From assembly GCA_025464445.1 (NCBI GenBank), contig JAODLY010000053.1:1-45990 (forward strand): a DNA stretch of 45,990 nt. Direction: 5' to 3'. The DNA comes from Rhodoglobus sp. (GTDB lineage Bacteria > Actinomycetota > Actinomycetes > Actinomycetales > Microbacteriaceae). The notes below the pieces were generated by a model. That model did no database searches. It saw nothing but the letters and a program-made list of their open reading frames with translations, and had not been told where the DNA came from. Position numbers and translations under genes: made by a program. Position 1 is the first letter of the stretch. The number at the start of each line of letters is the position of its first letter. This document shows positions 1,886 to 39,513 of the stretch, piece by piece.

Positions 1886-3319
1886 TCAGCTGTGGTCGTG
1901 GCCGTAGTGCTCGTTGTTCGGCTTGCGGCCGTGCGAGTCCTTGCCGGCGCCACCCTGCGCGTGGGCGTGCCCGTCATGGCTGTTTGCACCGTGCAGCGCG
2001 GAGGTCATCTCCGAAACGTCGAACTCTTCGTCGTCGTCGCTGTTCACCGTGGCGGTGAATGCCGAGACGTCGACATCCTTGCCCTTTGAGTCGACGACCT
2101 TGGCCTTGCCGAGCACGACGGCCAGCGCCTTGGAGCGCGCGACTTCCGCGATCATGCCGGGGATCTGGCCGTTCTTGTCGAGCACTTCGATGAACTCGCC
2201 CGGCTCCATGCCGTACTGGGCTGCGCCCTGCACGAGGTAGTTGGTGAGCTCGGTCTGGCTGACCTTGATCTCTTCCTTCTCGACGATCGTGTCGAGCAGG
2301 ATCTGCGAACGGAACGTCTTCTCGCTGGAGATAGCCACCTCGCCGCGGTGCACATCATCGTCGAGACGGTTCTCGTTCTCGAGGTGACGGTGCACCTCGT
2401 CTTCGATGAGCTTCGCCGGCACCGGGATTTCGACGCTCTTGAGCAGCTCGTCGACGATCTGGTCGCGCGCCTGGGCGCCCTGGCCGAAGGACTTGGAGCG
2501 GGTGACCTGCTCCTTGATGTCGGCCTTGAGTTCTTTGATCGTGTCGAACTGGCTCGCGATCTGGGCGAAGTCGTCGTCGGCCTCAGGCAGCTCGCGCTCC
2601 TTGACCGCCAGCAGCGACACCGTGATGAGCGCGACCTCGCCCTCATGATCCCCGCCGAGCAGAGTGGATTCGAACGTCGTCGACTCTCCGGCGCTCAGCG
2701 AGTCGAGCGCCTCGTCGATACCCTCGATGAGTTCGCCCGAGCCGACCTCGTAGGAGATGCTCGTGGCGGAGTCGACCTCGTCGTCGCCGATCTTCGCGAT
2801 CAGGTCGAGCTGGGCGAAATCGCCGGTCTTCGCGGGGCGGTCGACGGTGACAAGGGTGCCGAAGCGGCTGCGCAGGGCGTCCAGTTCGTCCTTCACGTCA
2901 TCCGCCGACACCTCGACGGCGTCGACCGTGAGCTTGAGGCCGTCATAGTTCGGGATGGCGAACTCCGGACGCACGTCAACCTCGACTGTCAGCTCGAGGT
3001 CGCCGCTGAAGTCCTTGACGTCAGGCAGCGTCACGATGTCGGCTGCCGGCCGACCGAGCACGCGGATCTTCTCGTCGGTGACGGCTTGGCGGTAGAACTT
3101 GTCGAGTCCGTCGTTCACGGCGTGGCTCAGCACCTCTTCACGGCCGACGCGCTGGTCGATGAGCTGCGGCGGCACCTTGCCCTTGCGGAAGCCGGGAATG
3201 TTCACCGACTGGGCGATGTGCTCGTAGGCGTGGGTGATGCTGGGTTTGAGCTCGTCAGGGGTGACAGAGATGTTGAGCTTGACGCGCGTGGGGCTCAGCT
3301 TCTCAACGGTGGTCTTCAC
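1886..3319 (-). CDS. tig: Trigger factor, ribosome-associated chaperone/PPIase
   Basis: Trigger factor of 477 aa, which binds nascent chains at the ribosome exit tunnel. The N-terminal domain carries the ribosome-docking signature GFRKGKVP (about residues 43-50). The FKBP-type peptidyl-prolyl isomerase domain follows (about 160-245, starting [16 protein letters not shown]), then the helical C-terminal chaperone domain. I chose the GTG at 3319 (protein begins [11 protein letters not shown]) because AAGGAG lies 8 nt upstream; the open frame continues through the tRNA-Pro gene, which cannot be coding. The last 35 or so residues are His-rich (eight His, ending EHYGHDHS), unusual for trigger factors and reminiscent of metal-binding tails of SlyD. 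tRNA-Pro lies only 32 nt upstream on the same strand, so tRNA and tig may share a transcript. Confidence 0.95.
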
Positions 3320-3351
3320 GTTGCGTTCTCCTTGTTGTGATGGATGTGCTG

Positions 3352-3425
3352 TCGGGGCGACAGGATTCGAACCTGCGGCCTCTCGGTCCCAAACCGAGCG
3401 CTCTACCAAGCTGAGCTACGCCCCG
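3352..3425 (-). tRNA. tRNA-Pro (anticodon TGG)
   Basis: A 74-nt cloverleaf can be folded: acceptor CGGGGCG pairing with CGCCCCG, D-arm GCTC/GAGC, anticodon stem CTCGG/CCGAG with loop TTTGGGA (anticodon TGG, reads CCA), and T-arm GCAGG-TTCGAAT-CCTGT. Discriminator base is A and CCA is not encoded. Upstream on the same strand a TTGCCA/GATGCT pair with 18-nt spacing is a plausible promoter. tig begins 32 nt downstream. Confidence 0.97.
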
Positions 3426-3535
3426 GGCCGTGCGAAAAGCGGCCGTGGGCGCTCGCGTGAGCATCCCATCCAAAATTTGGCCTTGGCAAGTCTAGCTGAC
3501 AACAACTGGGGCGCCGCCGGGGCTATTCCATCCGG

Positions 3536-3564
3536 GCAACGTATGGCGCGACGCCATACGTTGC
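3536..3564. terminator. Perfect 13-bp inverted repeat downstream of the channel gene
   Basis: GCAACGTATGGCG and its exact reverse complement are separated by only 3 nt. It lies 30 nt past the stop codon of the channel gene and before tRNA-Pro, both on the minus strand. It most likely forms a terminator hairpin for the channel transcript, although no T-tract follows. Confidence 0.55.
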
Positions 3565-3593
3565 TCAAACAGAGCCCGGCTGCCCTGCGACGG

Positions 3594-5477
3594 TCAGCCG
3601 GCGGCGAGAACGATGATCTTGTCGCCCGCGACGAAGGTCGTGCGATCGGCCTTCTTCGGGTTGACGGTGACGCCGTAGCCGCGCTCGCCGTTGCGGGCAT
3701 CCGCGACGACGCGGTAGCCGATGGCGGTTTCGCCGCGCCTGCGTGCTGCCTCGAGCACCGTGTAGAAGTCGACGTCTGCACCGAGCGTGAGGTACTGCTC
3801 CACCGGGTTGAGGTAGACCTCGCTGCCGGTGCTGGCGAAGAGGTCGTCGAACACCTCCGTGAGCTGCTTGTTCTCAGAGACCTGGGAGAGCATGAGGCTG
3901 ATGAGCTTGTCGCTGACGATGAAGTCGTCGGCATTGGTGACCTCGGCGAGCTCGCGGTTTCTGTCGTCGAGCATCTCGCTCACGATGTTCAGGTCGACAC
4001 CGGTGCGATCCTGGATGTCGCGCAACTGCAGCAGGGTGATGAGCGTCTTGCCATCGGCGCGCTGCGCATCAAGCGTGTCTTTGTAGGCGAGCACGATGAT
4101 GTGGTCGAACTTGTGCACGTCGAGTTCTTCGAGCACAGCGCGGCTCGTGGCGTCCCCGCGCTTGAACGTGATCGCGAGGGTGTCGTACTTGGGAAAGTCG
4201 GGCTTCTCGACATCCGCGAGCACCGTCACCACGGAACCGGTCGCGACGTACTCGCTCAGCTCCTTGAGCATCCCCGCGAGGCCATGGTTGTACCCGAGCA
4301 CGAGTGTGCTCTCTGGCTTGGCCGCGGGCATCTTCGCTGTGCTGATTGCCGCGGCATCCACGGTGCCTGCCGTCGAGAGCCTGATGGTGCTGTCGTCCTC
4401 GGCGATGACGATGAGCTGGTCGCCCGCCTCGTAGATCGCGGTGTCCGTCGGGTTGAGTTCGACGACTCCGCCTTTGACGATGCCCATGACGCAGGAGTCT
4501 GCGAAGGCGAGCTGGGCGTCGAAGTAGGTCTTGCCGTACAGCGACGGCTGCTCGGTGAAGTAGATCTCGTCGCCTTCGAAGTCGAGCAACTCGGAGTAGA
4601 CGACACTCAGCCCGCTCTGGCGGCAGCTCTGCACGGTGATGCGGCCGATGAGGTCGCTGCCGAGCACCCAGTGCGCCTCGTCCCTGCCCACGAGTCGGGC
4701 GGCCTCGAGGTTGCCCTCGTGCTCGATCTCGCCGACGATGTGGTACTTCTCCGCCTTGCGCTTCGGGTTGTTGGTGAGCGCCAGCGCCGTCTTGATCACG
4801 TCGGAGTCGGGATCGGGGCTGCCCTCGGGTGCGAGAAGGACGATGCTGCGGGCGTTCTGCGGGTTGCTCAGGTCGAGGTCGGTGAGGTTCATCGGGTCGC
4901 CGGTGCGCACGATGATCTTCGTCTTGCCGGTCTTGCCGACCTGCGCGCGGATTTCGTCTTCCATCTCGACCTTGTCGCGGTCGGCGAGGATGACGATTGC
5001 CGATCGGCCGCGCGACTCGTTGGCCACAACGATCTCACCGATGATCGGGAACACTTTTGTGCTCCAGCCGAGGATGAGGGTGTGGTCTTTTTCGAGAACT
5101 TTCGAGCGGCCCTTGCGCAGTTCCTCGATCTTCGAGTCGAAGGCCCCAGAGATGATGCCGATGAGGGCCGCGACGATGATCAGTCCGCCGATGGTGATGG
5201 TGAGCATGAACAGGCGGAACCACCAGTTGGTGTCCCCGCCCATGGTCCCCGGGTCGAGCGTGCGCAGGAGGTTGCCCCACAGCGTGTCCAGCGGATTGGT
5301 GTTCGGGTCGTCGTTCGGGAACTGCCCGAACAACGTGAAGAGCATCACCAGACCGAAGATCACCAAGACGAGCACGATCGTGGCAATGCCCAGGAGCGCG
5401 ATGAGGGCGACGGGGCCACGCGACATCCAGTTGTCGAACCAGTAGCGGAAACGCTCGCCGAATGTGGGCTTGTTCAT
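3594..5477 (-). CDS. CASTOR/POLLUX-type putative ion channel with two RCK-like domains
   Basis: Membrane protein of 627 aa related to plant CASTOR/POLLUX (DMI1, SYM8) ion channels. Residues 22-51 and 85-113 are two strong transmembrane segments. Between them lies a pore-loop-like stretch with LLRTLDPGTMGGD (about 70-82). The rest is cytoplasmic: a first Rossmann/RCK-like unit starts at HTLILGWS (about 132) and a second at STLVLGYNHG (about 390), as in RCK-gated channels. The plant channels are nuclear-envelope cation channels for symbiosis signalling; bacterial members are mostly uncharacterised, so ion selectivity is unknown. ATG 5477 was chosen because GAAGGA lies 6 nt upstream; an in-frame GTG at 5495 is less likely. 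A TATGAT -10 box lies at 5509-5504 with a GCGAGGTCTCGC palindrome in the promoter spacer. No partner gene is adjacent. Confidence 0.85.
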   Translation of the reverse strand: MNKPTFGERFRYWFDNWMSRGPVALIALLGIATIVLVLVIFGLVMLFTLFGQFPNDDPNTNPLDTLWGNLLRTLDPGTMGGDTNWWFRLFMLTITIGGLIIVAALIGIISGAFDSKIEELRKGRSKVLEKDHTLILGWSTKVFPIIGEIVVANESRGRSAIVILADRDKVEMEDEIRAQVGKTGKTKIIVRTGDPMNLTDLDLSNPQNARSIVLLAPEGSPDPDSDVIKTALALTNNPKRKAEKYHIVGEIEHEGNLEAARLVGRDEAHWVLGSDLIGRITVQSCRQSGLSVVYSELLDFEGDEIYFTEQPSLYGKTYFDAQLAFADSCVMGIVKGGVVELNPTDTAIYEAGDQLIVIAEDDSTIRLSTAGTVDAAAISTAKMPAAKPESTLVLGYNHGLAGMLKELSEYVATGSVVTVLADVEKPDFPKYDTLAITFKRGDATSRAVLEELDVHKFDHIIVLAYKDTLDAQRADGKTLITLLQLRDIQDRTGVDLNIVSEMLDDRNRELAEVTNADDFIVSDKLISLMLSQVSENKQLTEVFDDLFASTGSEVYLNPVEQYLTLGADVDFYTVLEAARRRGETAIGYRVVADARNGERGYGVTVNPKKADRTTFVAGDKIIVLAAG

Positions 5478-5514
5478 GGGGTCCTTCGGTTGCACGTGCG
5501 CGGATCATATGCCC

Positions 5515-5526
5515 GCGAGGTCTCGC
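5515..5526. promoter_or_regulatory. Palindrome GCGAGGTCTCGC in the channel-gene promoter (copy 1)
   Basis: Hyphenated palindrome GCGAG-GT-CTCGC. On the minus strand it sits between a TTATGC -35-like hexamer (5531-5526) and a near-consensus TATGAT -10 box (5509-5504) of the channel gene. An identical 12-mer recurs at 5591-5602 ahead of tRNA-Gly, so it may be an operator. Function is inferred from position only. Confidence 0.45.
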
Positions 5527-5590
5527 ATAAGAGTGGCACAGCGCCGCGCACCGCGCAGCCCGCTGGTCCGCGGGGATGCCGGTGCCGGCC

Positions 5591-5618
5591 GCGAGGTCTC
5601 GCGCGAGTCGGGTACAGT
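5591..5618 (+). promoter_or_regulatory. tRNA-Gly promoter with palindrome GCGAGGTCTCGC (copy 2)
   Basis: The second copy of GCGAGGTCTCGC (5591-5602) lies just before a TACAGT -10 box (5613-5618) that would start transcription about 30 nt ahead of tRNA-Gly. The palindrome overlaps the expected -35/spacer position. Confidence 0.45.
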
Positions 5619-5654
5619 ATTCCTCGGCAGTCGGGCGGTCAACCGCTCGGCCCC

Positions 5655-5725
5655 GGGGATGTAGCTCAATGGTAGAGCCTCAGTTTTCCAAACTGATCAC
5701 GCGGGTTCGATTCCCGTCATCCCCT
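5655..5725 (+). tRNA. tRNA-Gly (anticodon TCC)
   Basis: A 71-nt cloverleaf: acceptor GGGGATG pairing with CATCCCC, D-arm GCTC/GAGC, anticodon stem TCAGT/ACTGA with loop TTTCCAA (anticodon TCC, reads GGA), T-arm CGGGT-TCGATTC-CCGTC, discriminator T. CCA is not encoded. A long hairpin begins directly at the tRNA 3' end. Confidence 0.97.
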
Positions 5726-7322: not shown

Positions 7323-7342
7323 TACCCCCCATCTTGGGGGTA
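7323..7342. promoter_or_regulatory. CsoR-like inverted repeat upstream of the first DUF2510 gene
   Basis: TACCCCC-N6-GGGGGTA, a perfect 7-bp inverted repeat 16 nt upstream of a shared promoter block (7359-7376). The layout resembles operators of the CsoR/FrmR copper-sensor family (TACCCC...GGGGTA). No csoR gene is in the window, so the regulator is unknown. Confidence 0.4.
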
Positions 7343-7358
7343 AAACGTGAAGGATCAT

Positions 7359-7376
7359 GTCCCCTACTATGAGGAC
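7359..7376 (+). promoter_or_regulatory. Promoter block shared by both DUF2510 genes (copy 1)
   Basis: GTCCCCTACTATGAGGAC contains a TACTAT -10 box (7365-7370) inside a GTCC-N10-GGAC inverted repeat. The same block with two changes is at 11437-11454. Both precede DUF2510 microprotein genes by about 70-80 nt. Confidence 0.55.
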
Positions 7377-7457
7377 AACCGCACCCGAACTGGCTCTCGC
7401 GGTTGAGCCACGCGCCGTTTCCCGAATCGCCCCGCGGCAGGCAATCACAGGATCACT

Positions 7458-7619
7458 ATGTCTATCGAAACCGAACTGCCCCCCTTCGGTTGGTACCCGG
7501 ATCCCGCCGGTACTTCCATGCTCCGCTGGTGGAATGGCACCGCCTGGACGAACAACCTTGAGCGTCGTCGCCCCGAGGTGCAGGCTTCTCCCGAATTCGC
7601 CACACGGCTCGCTTCCTGA
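7458..7619 (+). CDS. DUF2510 microprotein, 53 aa
   Basis: Protein of 53 aa that is little more than a DUF2510 domain: FGWYPDPAGTSMLRWWNGTAWT (residues 10-31) with its hallmark aromatic and WYPDP residues. DUF2510 usually sits at the N-terminus of actinobacterial membrane proteins; a stand-alone copy with no membrane helix is less usual. The ATG has AGGA about 6 nt upstream. The promoter block and the CGGCAGG...CACAGGA leader are near-identical to those of the 63-aa DUF2510 gene at 11523, so the two are duplicated and probably co-regulated. Function of the domain is unknown; it may bind a partner or the envelope. It lies 51 nt ahead of the giant membrane protein gene. Confidence 0.85.
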   Translation: MSIETELPPFGWYPDPAGTSMLRWWNGTAWTNNLERRRPEVQASPEFATRLAS

Positions 7620-7636
7620 GCCACCGGTAGCCGCTA

Positions 7637-7659
7637 CCCTGTACGCACGTCGTACAGGG
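7637..7659. promoter_or_regulatory. Perfect 9-bp inverted repeat over the -10 box and near the RBS of the giant membrane gene
   Basis: CCCTGTACG-CACGT-CGTACAGGG. Its left arm overlaps a TACCCT -10-like box (7635-7640) and its right arm overlaps the AGGGAG ribosome-binding site (7656-7661) of the gene at 7671. It could be a protein operator or an RNA hairpin that hides the RBS. Confidence 0.5.
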
Positions 7660-7670
7660 AGCTGCTGCTG

Positions 7671-10600
7671 ATGGTCACACCGGATAGGTCGTTCGTCGAA
7701 CACGCCGGCTACGTGGTTTTCCCCCGCGGGCCCGGCGATCTCACGAGCACGACGCACTGTCCGGCGTGTTTTTCGGCGCTCACGAGCACCGTGTGCGGCA
7801 TCTGCCACCTGGATCTCACCCATCCGGCCGCGGCGGAGTTGCACACGGTTTCGCTCGAGGCTGCCGCAGCGCTCGAGCACCGCGTCGAGCTGATCGGCAG
7901 GATGCGGTTCGAGACCGCTGGCGCACCCGCCGCACCCGCCATCCCCGCCGCGGTTGCCGCTCCCCCGGTCGTCTCTGCGCCGAGTTCGGCGCCACCGGTT
8001 GCGACCCCGCCATCGGTTCGGGATGCCGCGCCGAAACGCCATTTCGGCGTGCAGGTGGTCCTGCTCATCGTCGGCGTCTCACTGCTCGCCGTTGGCGCGG
8101 TCTTCTTCCTCGTCTACGCGTTCATCACGTTCGGACTTGTCTGGCGCTCTGTGATCATCGCCGCGGTCACGGTTGCTGCCTTCGTCGGGGCGTCCCTCCT
8201 GCGCCGGCAAAAGCTCGGCGCGACGGCCGAGGCGATCGCCGCCCTCGCTGTCGTGTTCGTCTACCTCGACGCGTTCGCGATCCGGGCGAACAACCTGTTC
8301 GGCGCCGAGCGCGCCGACGGGGTCGTCTATTGGGGCGCGACCCTGCTCGCTTCTGCCGTCGTCTTCGCGGTGTGGCACCGCCTCTCCGGCCTGCGCCTGC
8401 CGAACATCGTCGCGTTCGCGGCGGCAGCGCCCGGCCTTGCCCTCCTCGTGGGCGGACTCACGACCAGCCTCGAGGATGCGACTCGCGTGTTCGTCTCGTT
8501 CGCCGCGCTGGCTTTCGGCGGCCTGCTGCATCCGCTGGCCGGCGCGAAGCGAGTCGAGCGAGTCATCTCGCTGGTCATCGGCTGCGTTGGGCTGGCCGCG
8601 GGCGGCATCGCCGCGCTGTTCCTTGAGCCGAACTGGGATTGGGCGCCGGCCGTAGGGCTCGGTGTCATCGCGATAATCGCGCTGCTGCACGTGGTGGTGG
8701 CGACGAGAGTGGGGTCGCCTCGGGCGCCAGCACGTGTCGCGGCCGGGATCGGCGGGGTCGCGGCATCCGCAGCGATGCTCGCGACGGGGCTGCGGATGAA
8801 CGACGTGCCTTTCGTCGTGCTCGCGGCACCGATTGCGGCTGCGGCCATCGCGCTCGCCCTCGAGTTCGCGGCGCGGCGGGTGTCCGGGCTCCCCCGGGCC
8901 GCCGCCGTGACTGCGGCCTGGGCATCCGCGGGCGTCGCAGCTCTCGCCCTGCTGTTCCCGGTCGTGACGAGCTTGTCGCCTGTCATCGGGCTCGTCGTCG
9001 GCGGCACGGAGCGCTGGAGTGTGCGCGGCGGCAACGCGATCGCCTTGCAGCAGGAGAACATCGACGCGGTCATCGCCCTCGCCGCAATCGTCGCCCTCGC
9101 CGCGGGCGGCTGGCTGATGTCTGACGTCTTCGCCCGGCGCAAGCCCATCATCGCGTGGGCGGCCGTAGCCGTGCTCATCCTCGCCGCGCCCCTCACCGGG
9201 TTGCTGTGGCTCGCCGACATCGCCTGGCTCGTTCTCGGGGCTGCCGGCCTCGTAGCTCTCGTCGCGGCGGCCCGCCGTGGGTCCCGCGTCGCGGTGCGGG
9301 CTCCCATCGCCGCGGCGGCGATCGTGGCCACGGCCCTCGCGTACGCGTCATCGTGGGCGAGCATCGACACCTGGTGGTACGGCTCGGTCGGCACCGTGGC
9401 ACTGCTCGTCGTGGCGCGCGTCACGACGAAATCGGCGGTGGTGCGCGCCATCCTGCTCGGCGCGGCCACTGTCGTCGCACTCGTCGCGGCAGGCTCTGAG
9501 GGCTGGCACACGAACGAGCGCTTCCATGGCGGCGCCGGCGCGGGCGTCGACGCCACGCATTTCGTCGGGATCCTCGCGATCCTGCTTGTCATACTCTCTG
9601 CCGTGCTGGCCCGGGTGCTCTCGGCGCTCGAGACCAGGGTGCTGTTCTGGCTCTCGTTCGCGGCGGCGGTTGTCACCTCGGGAGTGAGCTGGGTGCTCGG
9701 CGCCATCGCGAGCCCGGCCGATCTGGGCCTGCTCGTGTTGCCCGAGTTCCTGACGAGCGTGCTGCTCGCATTCGGCCTGCTGGTTGCGCTGCTGGGGTGG
9801 GTGCTGCTGCCTTCGACCTCCCGGTTCGGGGTGGAGCGGGTCGCGGCATCCATCGCCATTGCCCCTGTCGTCGCCTGGCTCGTCGATTCGCTCGCGCGTC
9901 TCGCCGCGCTCCCCGTTTTCGTGACCTCCCTGGCCCCGATTGCCGCCAGCCTGCTGGTCGCCGCCGTCGGGCTGGCGATCGCACTGCTGCGGCCCGGCGG
10001 TGCCCCGCGCTGGACACTGGACGCGGGTGTCGCGCTCGTCGCGCTCCCGACGGTGCTCGCCGCGGTCTCGGTACCCACGGATGACACCTGGCTCATGCTG
10101 CTCGTCGCTGGCCTCACCGCCCTGCTCCTGTCGGTCTCGAAAGACGGTCTTTTCGCCTCCGGCTCGCCGCGCAAGCATCTCGGCTGGGTGGCTCTCGTCC
10201 TCGGCGCCGCGGGACTGTGGTGGCGTCTCGGCGACGCCAGGGTCACCGCGCTCGAGCCCTACGTGCTTCCAATCGCGGGCGCGCTGCTGGTCATCGCGTT
10301 CCTCGTCTGGCGCGCGGATCGACCGGCCGAGAGCGCCGCAGCGCCGGTGATCGCGTTCGCCGGCCTCGCGATCGGGGTCCTGCCGATCGCGGCGGTTTCC
10401 ACCACCGGCCCCGTGCTGCGCACCTTAATCGTTGCCGGCGCCGCGGCCATCCTGGTGCTGGCCGGCACGTTCACGCCGGGAGTCAAGCTGCGCCACTACC
10501 GGGATGCCGCGGCGCTGGCCGGTGCGCTCGGCATCGTTACGGCTGCCGTCGGCCGCGCCGCCGCCATGGCCGCTGCGGGCAACACGGCAGACCCCACGCT

Positions 10601-11342
10601 CGACGCCTGGCTTGGCGGGGCGTTCGCGGTGCTGGTGGCGGCCGCGATCGGACAGTCCCGCGCCCGTCCGATCCTCGGCCAGGTAGTGCTCGGGGTTGCC
10701 GTCGCGGCGGTTGCGCTCGTCGAACTCGGGGTGCTCGACGGTCGCTTCGGCACTCCGAGGGCAGTGACCCTGCTCCTGCTGCTCGGCGTGCTCCACGTGC
10801 TCGGCGTGCTCTTCGACAGGGCGCCGTTCACGGCGCTCCTCGGCTGGGCGTCCATCGCCCTCGGTGCGGTCGTCGCGGTCGTGGCTGTGGCGGGAGAGGT
10901 CATCGATCCGCTCGAGTGGGCGACGGGCATCCTCGCCGCCGCGCTTTTGGTGGCGGGAGCCTTGCGGCTGCGCCGTTCCGCGGGCGCGCGCAGTTGGGCG
11001 TGGCTGGCACCGGGCCTGCTCGTGCTGCTCGTTCCCTCGCTGCTCGCCACCTTCGGGGAGCAGCCGGCCTGGCGGCTCGTCGGGCTCGGTGTCGCGTGCC
11101 TCATCGCAATCGTGGCCGGTGCGCTGCTCAAGCTCCAGGCGCCACTGCTGGTGGGTGCGGTGGTCGTCATCGTGCACGCCCTGCGCACGTTCGCGCCGCA
11201 ACTCGCGGCGGTCTACCAGCTGACCGAATGGTGGGTCTGGGCGGTGGTCGGCGGGGCGATCATCCTGTTCCTCGGCCTCACGTTCGAGAAGCGCCTGCGT
11301 GACCTGAAGTCGGTCGGCACCCGGGTGGCTTCGCTGCGGTAG
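7671..11342 (+). CDS. Giant polytopic membrane protein with N-terminal zinc ribbon (SCO7613-C-terminal-domain type)
   Basis: Protein of 1223 aa. The N-terminus carries a C-x2-C ... C-x2-C zinc ribbon (Cys30, Cys33, Cys42, Cys45: CPAC and CGIC) followed by a helical stretch and a Pro/Ala-rich linker (about 85-120). From about residue 125 to the end it is almost wholly membrane helices, probably 30 or more, rich in Ala, Val, Leu and Gly and ending with a charged EKRLRDLKS segment. This layout matches the actinobacterial family called SCO7613 C-terminal domain-containing membrane proteins. No catalytic motif is visible and the function is unknown; a scaffold, sensor or lipid/polymer-handling role would be guesswork. 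ATG 7671 has AGGGAG about 10 nt upstream, inside a palindrome. It is flanked by two DUF2510 microprotein genes with copied promoters. GC-rich composition is like the neighbours, so no sign of recent transfer. Confidence 0.82.
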   Translation: MVTPDRSFVEHAGYVVFPRGPGDLTSTTHCPACFSALTSTVCGICHLDLTHPAAAELHTVSLEAAAALEHRVELIGRMRFETAGAPAAPAIPAAVAAPPVVSAPSSAPPVATPPSVRDAAPKRHFGVQVVLLIVGVSLLAVGAVFFLVYAFITFGLVWRSVIIAAVTVAAFVGASLLRRQKLGATAEAIAALAVVFVYLDAFAIRANNLFGAERADGVVYWGATLLASAVVFAVWHRLSGLRLPNIVAFAAAAPGLALLVGGLTTSLEDATRVFVSFAALAFGGLLHPLAGAKRVERVISLVIGCVGLAAGGIAALFLEPNWDWAPAVGLGVIAIIALLHVVVATRVGSPRAPARVAAGIGGVAASAAMLATGLRMNDVPFVVLAAPIAAAAIALALEFAARRVSGLPRAAAVTAAWASAGVAALALLFPVVTSLSPVIGLVVGGTERWSVRGGNAIALQQENIDAVIALAAIVALAAGGWLMSDVFARRKPIIAWAAVAVLILAAPLTGLLWLADIAWLVLGAAGLVALVAAARRGSRVAVRAPIAAAAIVATALAYASSWASIDTWWYGSVGTVALLVVARVTTKSAVVRAILLGAATVVALVAAGSEGWHTNERFHGGAGAGVDATHFVGILAILLVILSAVLARVLSALETRVLFWLSFAAAVVTSGVSWVLGAIASPADLGLLVLPEFLTSVLLAFGLLVALLGWVLLPSTSRFGVERVAASIAIAPVVAWLVDSLARLAALPVFVTSLAPIAASLLVAAVGLAIALLRPGGAPRWTLDAGVALVALPTVLAAVSVPTDDTWLMLLVAGLTALLLSVSKDGLFASGSPRKHLGWVALVLGAAGLWWRLGDARVTALEPYVLPIAGALLVIAFLVWRADRPAESAAAPVIAFAGLAIGVLPIAAVSTTGPVLRTLIVAGAAAILVLAGTFTPGVKLRHYRDAAALAGALGIVTAAVGRAAAMAAAGNTADPTLDAWLGGAFAVLVAAAIGQSRARPILGQVVLGVAVAAVALVELGVLDGRFGTPRAVTLLLLLGVLHVLGVLFDRAPFTALLGWASIALGAVVAVVAVAGEVIDPLEWATGILAAALLVAGALRLRRSAGARSWAWLAPGLLVLLVPSLLATFGEQPAWRLVGLGVACLIAIVAGALLKLQAPLLVGAVVVIVHALRTFAPQLAAVYQLTEWWVWAVVGGAIILFLGLTFEKRLRDLKSVGTRVASLR

Positions 11343-11436
11343 CCGGCGAACCGCGGGAATCTCGCGAATCCCCACGGCATAAGGCGTGGGAGCGCTCCCA
11401 TGACCCCCGGGTTGGGGGCTGTCGGGGTACAAAGGG

Positions 11437-11454
11437 GTCCCCTACTCTGTGGAC
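11437..11454 (+). promoter_or_regulatory. Promoter block shared by both DUF2510 genes (copy 2)
   Basis: GTCCCCTACTCTGTGGAC with a TACTCT -10 box (11443-11448) and the same GTCC-N10-GGAC inverted repeat as at 7359-7376. A second conserved piece, GCGGCAGG followed by CACAGGA, lies just before both start codons (7434-7452 and 11498-11517). Confidence 0.55.
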
Positions 11455-11522
11455 GAGGGCCGTAACCGGCACTCGAATGCCGCACCCGGATGGCCTAGCG
11501 GCAGGGCACCACAGGACACGCA

Positions 11523-11714
11523 ATGTCGACCACAACGAACACCAGGACGGAAGTAGCCCCCTACGGCTGGTACCCCGACCCTGCGGGCAGCCACAAGCTG
11601 CGGCTTTGGAACGGCGCCGAGTGGACTGACAAGCTCGAGCGCAAAGGTTCAGGCGTCCAGCCGGTTTTCGGCTATTCCGAAGACGGCCGCGTCACCCGCC
11701 AGTTCGACTACTGA
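11523..11714 (+). CDS. DUF2510 microprotein, 63 aa
   Basis: Second small DUF2510 protein (63 aa): YGWYPDPAGSHKLRLWNGAEWTD spans residues 14-36, followed by a short polar tail ending RQFDY. It is a paralogue of the 53-aa protein at 7458; the domains and the promoter/leader are both conserved, while the tails differ. AGGA lies about 7 nt before the ATG. It is soluble by sequence, with no signal peptide or membrane helix. Its last 23 nt overlap the end of the convergent response-regulator gene. Position directly after the giant membrane protein gene suggests a shared function, perhaps as partner subunits. Confidence 0.85.
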   Translation: MSTTTNTRTEVAPYGWYPDPAGSHKLRLWNGAEWTDKLERKGSGVQPVFGYSEDGRVTRQFDY

Positions 11715-12360
11715 GCCAGGCCAGCACGGCTAGCACCCGCCGGTGGTCGGTGCCGGAGTCATCCAGCGCCAGCTTCTGGAAGATGGCCGTCACGTTCTTC
11801 TCGACAGCGCCGATGCCGATCACGAGCTGCCTGCCGATCGCCGCGTTCGTTCGCCCCTCGGCCATGAGGGCCATCACTTCCCGCTCGCGCGGTGTCAGCG
11901 CGGCGAGCGGATCATGGCGCCGCCCCAACAGTTGCGCGACGACCTCTGGGTCGAGCACGGTGCCGCCTGCGGCGATCCGTTCGACGGCATCCCTGAGCTC
12001 GGCGAGCGAGGCAACCCGGTCTTTGAGCAGGTAGCCCACCCCGCCGCTGCCGCTCGACAACAGCTCCTGGGCATAGGCGACCTCGACGTACTGCGAGAGC
12101 AACAGGATGCCGACGCCGGGCAGCGCGGACCTCGCCTCGATGGCCGCCCGTACGCCCTCGTCGCGATATGTCGGCGGCATCCGCACGTCGAGCACGACGA
12201 TGTCGGGCGCCACGGCGGTCAAGTCGGCGAGCAGGTCGACAGCGTCGCCGTATGACGCAACCACATCGAAACCGGCCTCGTCGAGCACGCGCACGAGCCC
12301 TTCACGCAACAGCACCGAGTCATCGGCAACCACCACGCGAAGGGGTGCTGTTGGGCTCAC
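11692..12360 (-). CDS. NarL/LuxR-family response regulator
   Basis: Response regulator of 222 aa. The receiver domain (about 5-125) has the acidic pair VVADD, phosphoacceptor Asp in VVLDVRMPP near residue 56 and Lys in LLKDRV near 112. The C-terminal LuxR-type helix-turn-helix contains LTPREREVMALMAEGRTNAAI and the typical VEKNVTAIFQKL. It is paired with the sensor kinase gene just upstream, whose stop is 10 nt away, so the two form one operon. I chose the GTG at 12360; a TTG at 12378 that overlaps the kinase stop is an alternative. A likely binding site is the 18-bp palindrome upstream of the kinase gene. The stimulus is unknown; envelope stress is possible by analogy with LiaR-like systems. 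Confidence 0.9.
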   Translation of the reverse strand: MSPTAPLRVVVADDSVLLREGLVRVLDEAGFDVVASYGDAVDLLADLTAVAPDIVVLDVRMPPTYRDEGVRAAIEARSALPGVGILLLSQYVEVAYAQELLSSGSGGVGYLLKDRVASLAELRDAVERIAAGGTVLDPEVVAQLLGRRHDPLAALTPREREVMALMAEGRTNAAIGRQLVIGIGAVEKNVTAIFQKLALDDSGTDHRRVLAVLAWLSSRTGG

Positions 12361-12370
12361 CCAGCCAACA

Positions 12371-13729
12371 CTAGGCAATCGAGGTCGTCGACGTGACGGA
12401 GGTCGTCACCGGCAGGTGCGCCGAGACGATCGTCGGCCCCCCAGCCGGGCTGTGCAGTTCGAGTGTGCCGCCGAGCCCACGCAGTCTCTCCTCGAGGCCG
12501 GAGATGCCGTGCCCCGCGATCGTGAATGCGCCGCCGCGGCCGTTGTCGGTCACGACCACGTCGAGCCAGGATTGCTCCTCAACCCGCAACGAGACGCGCA
12601 CCTCGATGTCCGTTGCCCCCGAGTGCTTGCCCGCGTTGACGAGAGCCTCGCTGGCCATGAAGTAGGCATTGCGCTCGATCTCCTGCGGCAGCTCGATGCC
12701 GTCGGGCAGCTCGCTGACCACTCGCGCCGGCACGGTGCTGCGGGCCGCCGCGGACTCGAGCGCCGCGACGAGTCCCCGGTCGAGCAGGATGGGCGGCGCG
12801 AAACCGCGGGACAGCGCGCGCAATTCCTCCAGGGCATCCTTCGACTGCTGCATGGCCTCGGAGATGAGGCTCCGCGCCTTCTCCGGGTCGGCGTCGAGCT
12901 GGCGCTCGGCCGCAGCCAGGTCCATCTGCAGCCGCACGAGCCGCTGCTGCGGCCCGTCGTGGATGTCCCGCTCGAGTCGGCGCAGTGAGTGGCCCTCCGC
13001 GGAGTGCGCCGCCCCGCGAGACTCGGCGAGGGTGGCGACCTCGCGCTGGAGGGCATCCGATCGCCACGTGCCGAGCACGCCACGGGCAACGAGCCAGTGC
13101 AGCGAAACCAGGCCGCGGCTGACGAATGGCAGCGTGGCGACAAGCACGATGCCGAGCGCCAGGTAGATGAGGTTGTCGGCGAGAACGACATCGAGGCCGA
13201 CGCGACCCTGGAAGATCCACTCAGACAGGAACCAACCGCGGTGGCCCTGGGGCAGGAAAATCGACCAGAACCAATAGGTGAGTCCGCCCAACCCACTCGC
13301 TACCCAGCTGATCATTATCGACCAGGTGAACGTCGTGATGATGAAGTCGAGCACCATCACGTAAAGCAGGTACAACCAGTAGTGGCCGTTGCCGAGCACC
13401 GCGCGCACCCAGCCGAAGAAGCCCGTGCGGGCGCGGGCATCCTGCCACTCGGGCTTTTGGATAGGTGGCCTGCCGGTCCAGCGCAGCAGGGCGAGGTCGA
13501 GCGTGCCGAAACCTCTCGCTATGTAGAGGCACGCGACGATGAGCACGAGCCCGATAAAGAACGTGACGATAGTGCCGAACCCCGCCGAGAACAGTCCGAC
13601 CGTGAGCCCGAAGCCGACGACGGCGATCGGGAAGGCGATGAACAGGTAGCCCAACTCGCGCGGCACGTTCGACCAGAGTCGCCAATACCCGGCCCGCCCG
13701 GGCTGGGTGGCGATATCTGTGGTTGTCAT
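12371..13729 (-). CDS. Sensor histidine kinase with membrane sensor domain (NarL-type partner)
   Basis: Sensor kinase of 452 aa. Residues about 14-220 form a membrane-embedded sensor region (GYWRLWSNVPRELGYLFIAF and four or more hydrophobic segments), matching the putative-sensor domain of actinobacterial kinases. The HisKA_3 dimerisation motif is RRLERDIHDGPQQRL with phospho-accepting His257. The ATP-binding domain shows the N-box ALVNAGKHSGA, DNGRGG and GHGISGLEERL. ATG 13729 has AGGAG 6 nt upstream (GGAGACGCTC). The gene is divergent from dps with 170 bp between. That gap holds an 18-bp palindrome 16 nt before this start, a good candidate for autoregulation by the paired response regulator. 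Confidence 0.92.
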   Translation of the reverse strand: MTTTDIATQPGRAGYWRLWSNVPRELGYLFIAFPIAVVGFGLTVGLFSAGFGTIVTFFIGLVLIVACLYIARGFGTLDLALLRWTGRPPIQKPEWQDARARTGFFGWVRAVLGNGHYWLYLLYVMVLDFIITTFTWSIMISWVASGLGGLTYWFWSIFLPQGHRGWFLSEWIFQGRVGLDVVLADNLIYLALGIVLVATLPFVSRGLVSLHWLVARGVLGTWRSDALQREVATLAESRGAAHSAEGHSLRRLERDIHDGPQQRLVRLQMDLAAAERQLDADPEKARSLISEAMQQSKDALEELRALSRGFAPPILLDRGLVAALESAAARSTVPARVVSELPDGIELPQEIERNAYFMASEALVNAGKHSGATDIEVRVSLRVEEQSWLDVVVTDNGRGGAFTIAGHGISGLEERLRGLGGTLELHSPAGGPTIVSAHLPVTTSVTSTTSIA

Positions 13730-13744
13730 GAGCGTCTCCTCAAT

Positions 13745-13762
13745 TGTGCCGGTACTGGCACA
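13745..13762. promoter_or_regulatory. Palindrome upstream of the sensor-kinase gene
   Basis: TGTGCCGGTACTGGCACA: 18 bp, symmetric except for one central pair. It lies 16 nt before the start of the kinase gene. LuxR-type regulators bind such palindromes, so it may be the site of the adjacent response regulator. Confidence 0.5.
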
Positions 13763-13821
13763 GTCCAATGCTCGCGAGCCGCCGCATCCCGCAGTATCAG
13801 GCAGTCACACGAACCGGCGGT

Positions 13822-38913: not shown

Positions 38914-39513
38914 GTGACCAACGCGCCGACAGTCCCGGCAGGCTGGTATCCCGACCCGGCCGGCGGGCCGAAGCAGCGCTGGTGGGATGGCACGCAGTGG
39001 ACAGAGCACTTTCAGGAGCCATACTCGCCGGCCGTGGCAGCCGCCGTACTGAAGGCGCCGGAAGGCACCCCCGTCTACACGCCCTGGATCTGGATCGTCG
39101 CGCTGCTTCCCCTGCTCCAGTTGATCCCGCTTGCGACGTTCGACTTCGGCGGATACGTGCGTGGGGCGATGAGCCCATACGGTTCCATCGCGATGATGAC
39201 CTCGCCGGGGTACCTGCTGCTCACCCTCGGCGGCTGGGTCATCTATGGGCTGTCCGCGCTCTTCGCCTACCTGGATTGGCGTCGACTGGCAGCGGTCGGG
39301 ATGCCGCGGCCGTTCCACTTCGCGTGGGTCTTCCTCAGCTCGGTCGTCTACGTCATCGGCCGCTCCGTCGTCGTGCGACGCAGGACCGGTCGCGGAATAA
39401 CGCCGATGTGGGTGTCTATCGCCGGCCTCGTGCTGTCGTTCATCTTCGCGATCTACATCACCGCCGCGATGACGTCGGCGATCTTCGCGACGATTCCGAC
39501 ATACGGTTCATAA
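38914..39513 (+). CDS. DUF2510 membrane protein, 199 aa
   Basis: Protein of 199 aa with an N-terminal DUF2510 domain (AGWYPDPAGGPKQRWWDGTQWTEHF, about 9-33) and then about four membrane helices (WIWIVALLPLLQLIPL, LLLTLGGWVIYGLSALFAYL, FAWVFLSSVVYVIGRSVVV, ISIAGL-like VSIAGLVLSFIFAIYI). This is the common form of DUF2510 proteins, domain plus membrane part in one chain, in contrast with the two stand-alone copies at 7458 and 11523. GTG 38914 has GGAAGGA 7 nt upstream. It ends 1 nt before the Ddn-type gene, so both are one operon. Function unknown. Confidence 0.85.
   Translation: MTNAPTVPAGWYPDPAGGPKQRWWDGTQWTEHFQEPYSPAVAAAVLKAPEGTPVYTPWIWIVALLPLLQLIPLATFDFGGYVRGAMSPYGSIAMMTSPGYLLLTLGGWVIYGLSALFAYLDWRRLAAVGMPRPFHFAWVFLSSVVYVIGRSVVVRRRTGRGITPMWVSIAGLVLSFIFAIYITAAMTSAIFATIPTYGS

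Follow-up and report, generated by a model that had tools for sequence, protein, structure and literature searches.

Each of the two small DUF2510 genes examined here is probably a self-contained microprotein cassette, in which a promoter with G/C-tract dyads and a leader with predicted RNA pseudoknots would provide two layers of control. The genes lie in a 45,990-nt stretch, hereafter the window, of contig JAODLY010000053.1 from Rhodoglobus sp. (assembly GCA_025464445.1; genome of 2.84 Mb), and their features are collected in Table 1. The cassette sits in a loose neighborhood with a two-component system and, in part of the genomes compared, a giant membrane protein of the SCO7613 type. To our knowledge, no function has been assigned to DUF2510, and a literature search for DUF2510 found no paper naming it. 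A conserved switch-like RNA on such a gene would offer a direct handle on the function of the protein; the signal answered by the RNA, or by the factor that binds the dyads, would reveal the role of the microprotein.

Table 1. Features of the two small genes and their surroundings in the window
Feature	Position	Strand	Basis
G/C-tract dyad TACCCCC...GGGGGTA, small gene 1	7323..7342	+	Dyad search
Second dyad GTCCCC-TACTAT-GAGGAC around -10-like TACTAT (7365-7370), small gene 1	7359..7376	+	Promoter-block match
Predicted RNA pseudoknot 1, small gene 1; stems AACCGC/GCGGTT and TGGCTC/GAGCCA	7377..7410	+	Leader comparison
Predicted RNA pseudoknot 2, small gene 1; stem 1 GCCGT/GCGGC, stem 2 of 3 bp (fails 4-bp test)	7414..7442	+	Leader comparison
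Shine-Dalgarno-like ACAGGA, small gene 1	7447..7452	+	Sequence
DUF2510 microprotein 1, 53 aa	7458..7619	+	Pfam DUF2510 and subfamily profile
Giant polytopic membrane protein, 1223 aa, SCO7613_CTERM, N-terminal CxxC pairs	7671..11342	+	NCBIfam, hydropathy count
G/C-tract dyad CCCCC-GGGTT-GGGGG, small gene 2	11404..11418	+	Dyad search
Second promoter block GTCCCCTACTCTGTGGAC around TACTCT, small gene 2	11437..11454	+	Promoter-block match
Single recognizable predicted RNA pseudoknot, small gene 2; TGCCGC/GCGGCA and GCCT/GGGC	11478..11507	+	Leader comparison
DUF2510 microprotein 2, 63 aa, diverged, RPEIQ-like motif lost	11523..11714	+	Pfam DUF2510 and subfamily profile
LuxR-type response regulator, convergent with small gene 2	11692..12378	-	Pfam, relatives' loci
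Sensor histidine kinase (PF13796 Sensor, HisKA_3, HATPase_c)	12371..13768	-	Pfam, relatives' loci

The first-pass annotation had described two stand-alone DUF2510 proteins around a giant membrane protein with a CPAC/CGIC ribbon, and this description is borne out. The open reading frames are present, and both microproteins exceed the Pfam cut-off for DUF2510 (PF10708) of 24 bits, at 47.7 and 42.5 bits, respectively. The giant scores 158.2 bits against the NCBIfam family NF047321 (SCO7613_CTERM), which has a cut-off of 45 bits, and gave no match in the Pfam scan. It carries CPAC...CGIC and about 35 transmembrane-like segments by a simple hydropathy count.

Comparison of leaders among relatives shows that the leader unit is a predicted H-type RNA pseudoknot, found in about half of them. 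In each unit, the 5′ strand of stem 1 is followed by an ACCCGAA-type loop and the 5′ strand of stem 2, after which come the 3′ strands, first that of stem 1 and then that of stem 2. Under a loose rule, the unit was found in 43 of 71 distinct leaders, with two units in 16, and some of the low-scoring ones look spurious. At a score cut of 20.5, one or two units remain in 36 of the 71. These leaders show one trait of riboswitches, a conserved structure in the 5′ untranslated region; the other 35 have no recognizable unit above the cut.

Within an alignment of 21 units, all cells of stem 1 are paired, and three of its four pairs have changed on both sides. For the whole structure, 88.1% of the cells are paired versus 79.2% in shuffles, none of 500 of which was as high, and six slid versions of the structure reached 15.6 to 46.8%. 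Two of the five measures in this test fell within the shuffles (two-sided pairs, 166/500; further pair types, 445/500). Stem 2 is paired in 76% of the cells of the same alignment, in which some rows are out of register. An earlier shuffle of leader units was biased, because its units had been selected for pairing. With units picked by stem 1 and the loop alone, stem 2 was found in 42 of 54, whereas 2,000 partner shuffles gave a mean of 24.8 and a maximum of 33. A full 5-plus-4-bp pseudoknot is present in 46 of 93 leader cores versus 125 of 2,456 decoy cores, and one with at least seven G-C pairs is present in 38 of 93 versus 31 of 2,456. The nested folding energies of the leaders do not stand out (z between -0.27 and 1.83); nested folding is blind to pseudoknots. 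The conserved leader appears to be better explained as a structured RNA than as a plain leader. In three leaders (L222, L223, and L224), stem 1 and the AACCCGAA loop are kept and a partner for stem 2 was not found; such leaders may carry a simplified version of the element.

The first unit begins 6 to 7 nt after a TAnnnT -10-like hexamer in 21 of the 36 leaders, placing it at the predicted 5′ end of the mRNA. No such hexamer lies within 20 nt of the first unit in 14 of the 36, and the gap is 10 nt in one; in most of these 15 exceptions, the first recognized unit adjoins the start codon. The last unit stops just ahead of the Shine-Dalgarno sequence, with unit 2 in the window ending at 7442 and ACAGGA at 7447 to 7452, a placement that would fit translational control. 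It is unlikely that the pseudoknots are no switch and that a folded 5′ end merely protects the message from decay or fixes the level of translation. The position of the first unit at the predicted mRNA 5′ end would suit such a role, as would the many relatives that have no recognizable unit. However, stability alone would presumably need neither the placement of the last unit by the Shine-Dalgarno sequence nor a conserved loop. In the preferred reading, with each small gene under its own two layers of control, the pseudoknots would fold beside the ribosome-binding site and so switch translation; the trigger could be a ligand, a second RNA, or a protein, for which the microprotein itself is a candidate. 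The layout, a compact pseudoknot starting at the predicted transcription start, would also be an addition to those known.

Upstream of the units, CCCC-N4-8-GGGG dyads occur 60 to 220 nt before the start codon in 61 of the 71 leaders, 21 of which have two, versus 49 of 4,000 random 163-nt windows, coding and intergenic alike. Such dyads precede 6 of 69 giants that have no microprotein gene. Across the window genome, there are 18 matches to the forward dyad pattern and 10 to the reversed pattern, a weak excess. The dyads may be bound by a putative transcription factor. They are genuine DNA dyads in the same promoters as the interleaved repeats of the leader units, as would be expected if those repeats, too, were DNA sites of a protein rather than RNA. 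We consider this very improbable, in view of the two interleaved helices, which keep their pairing via compensatory changes, and of the start of the units at the predicted transcription start. Elsewhere in the window genome, two adjacent dyads (L283:1501-1540, near C30 18978) lie some 150 nt upstream of the gene for a bacterial sugar transferase, a possible second target of a dyad-binding factor.

The leader was rejected as a member of a known RNA family, since a scan of the window with Rfam 15 at the gathering threshold returned two tRNAs only, and scans of six relatives' loci at E values up to 5 returned only tRNAs. A literature search found no description of this RNA. A model, R1, was built from 21 pseudoknot units. 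Its 53 top matches come from 52 sources and all lie at small genes, which is partly so by construction. Two of the 53, at L194:6346-6413 on the minus strand, lie just after a small gene, and no small gene was detected downstream of them. Over 398 genomes of the window's family, R1 has a match at an E value of 0.05 in 35 genomes. Of the 52 matches listed, 41 are ahead of small DUF2510 genes, including the 27 best, and 11 are not before known microprotein genes; these 11 all have E values of at least 0.0034, and about 20 matches are expected by chance (E of 0.05 over 398 genomes). Of six of these 11 that were looked at, five (L249 to L253) look like chance and one (L254) gave no clear picture; on this sample, a placement of the RNA ahead of other genes was rejected. 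R1 was also run over 198 genomes of the order, of which 14 or more belong to the family of the window; outside the window genome, it found only matches with E values of 0.003 to 0.01. At an E value of 0.01, it matches in 6 of the 198; two are of the own family, and the other four are at about the chance level.

A tentative but serious possibility is that the leader represents an undescribed class of switch RNA, with one or two H-type pseudoknots from mRNA position +1, a DUF2510 microprotein as its only seen target, and a range of one actinobacterial family (Microbacteriaceae, judging by the named relatives). Such an RNA would serve either as a binding site for the microprotein that it encodes or as a sensor of a signal related to the envelope. 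The preQ1-I and SAM-II riboswitches likewise have a compact pseudoknot in the 5′ leader near the Shine-Dalgarno sequence. Unlike those, the leader described here, compared with them via Rfam scans only, has no Rfam match, is often in tandem, and precedes a microprotein gene. In being tied almost only to one protein without a known function, it resembles the yjdF motif RNA (PMC4793209), from which it differs in protein family and in RNA structure, as well as in being unmatched in the Rfam scans.

The microproteins themselves form a distinct subfamily. A small-protein profile run over the 398 family genomes gave 66 matches at or above the subfamily line of 67.5 bits, mostly in short frames, in 63 genomes. 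The next match scores 62 bits, and the remainder are mostly in long frames. Both window microproteins are DUF2510 proteins by the Pfam cut-off; the members of this subfamily differ from other DUF2510 proteins in standing alone, at about 55 to 65 aa, and in scoring apart from the domains in mostly longer frames. Outside the window's family, the best DUF2510 match has 51.8 bits and lies in a 202-aa frame, and the comparison shows the subfamily as confined, on profile scores, to this family. The window genome has nine DUF2510 matches, of which only microproteins 1 and 2 score high enough for the small subfamily. The window also holds a DUF2510 domain (38917-39033, plus strand) in a 213-aa open frame, which at 55 bits lies outside the subfamily. 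No solved structure was convincing as a relative of the small-protein profile (best E value, 0.98); DUF2510 may resemble WW domains. More speculatively, the Trp-rich microprotein could be cytosolic and serve the kinase or the giant as an adaptor at the envelope.

Gene neighborhoods were compared with 49 further loci fetched around matches to the small-protein profile; the nearest loci from named relatives are those of Rhodoglobus, Salinibacterium, and Leifsonia. Among 66 microprotein loci, the window left out and the microprotein defined by a profile score of at least 65 bits, the giant is a neighbor in 30, the response regulator (62% identity or more, across a minimum of 100 aa) in 39, both in 17, and neither in 14; some contigs end close to the small gene, and for L204 and L208 the fetched stretch stops short of the regulator. 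In 27 of the 66, the small gene and the regulator converge within 1 kb of each other, and these include loci without the giant. Its position varies: it may lie ahead of the giant, between the giant and the regulator, or beside the regulator with the giant absent from the stretch. The two-sided order of the window, which the first-pass annotation had proposed to look for in relatives, occurs in none of the 66 other loci. The comparison thus shows a recurrent but loose association of microprotein, giant, and regulator, the looseness following from the variable position of the small gene and from a sandwich seen in the window alone.

It is somewhat unlikely, although compatible with the cassette explanation, that the neighboring response regulator binds the dyads and that the microprotein is its output or feedback protein. 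The frequent proximity of the two genes and their convergent arrangement even at giantless loci argue for this. However, a dyad was found in just 1 of 54 kinase upstream regions; there is therefore no sign of autoregulation, and the dyad was rejected as an autoregulatory kinase site. In addition, the regulator is far more common than the microprotein, with a match (E of 1e-50, paralogues included) in at least 249 of the 398 genomes versus 63 for the microprotein, in a tally limited to seven scored candidates in any one genome, which overlooked at least one true neighbor (L212).

From the giant's side, NF047321 has a match in 84 of 199 family genomes, and we compared 80 fetched loci, a subset of the matches, and seven from named contigs. 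A small gene of the subfamily lies beside the giant in 13 of the 80 and in 4 of the 7, and a regulator is convergent within 2 kb in 22 of the 80. The giant is present in 25 of 35 genomes with a microprotein versus 59 of 164 others (Fisher P = 1.4e-4, with kinship ignored). This co-occurrence and the adjacency at 30 of the 66 microprotein loci agree in part with the proposal of the first-pass annotation that the three genes form one functional unit, in the sense that the microproteins and the giant make up one complex and their shared control serves balance. That reading is nevertheless improbable. The small gene is absent from the fetched stretch at 67 of the 80 giant loci, 10 of the 35 microprotein genomes have no giant match, and the two-sided order is found in the window only. 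Of the 25 genomes with both genes, 9 have them unlinked or unresolved, so that the linkage of small genes to the giant in relatives, the absence of which the first-pass annotation would have taken as refutation, is only partly upheld. The proposal is weakened further because the regulator is near the microprotein more often than the giant is. SCO7613 itself was studied as a putative polyhydroxyalkanoate (PHA) synthase, the deletion of which lowered PHA (PMC8313934). The window giant is like it in exceeding the cut-off of the family, and the parts of that work considered here name no microprotein partner.

The two small genes of the window share a promoter block and a leader, in agreement with the first-pass annotation. 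The motif GTCCCCTACT-N-TG-N-GGAC has exactly two exact occurrences in the window (at 7359 and 11437) and, at up to three mismatches, four matches versus 0.25 expected. The combination TTGGGGG-gap-TCCCCTAC has two sites in the 2.84-Mb genome, one ahead of each small gene. Local alignment of the two upstream regions scored 52, versus a maximum of 40 in 500 single-base shuffles and 43 for the best other stretch of the window. The further claim that a whole cassette was duplicated stands as far as the copied promoter and leader go, and not as a recent or local event. Small gene 1 is nearest to upstream copies in loci L035, L030, and L032 rather than to gene 2, and neither window copy is among the eight best matches of the other. 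A tree of 71 rows, based on few columns, does not group the two and places gene 2 on a long branch. A fresh duplication is therefore not supported.

Two or three small DUF2510 genes stand in tandem in two other loci (L185:1186-2165 and L184:6418-7013). Each of these genes has a leader to itself, with one pseudoknot unit or more, and the whole microprotein cassette seems prone to tandem copying. Elsewhere in the window, an 813-aa open frame (3234-5672, plus strand) was matched by neither Pfam nor NCBIfam. One tRNA overlaps its 3′ end, and another, on the opposite strand, is close to its 5′ end; given these tRNAs, the frame may not be a gene.
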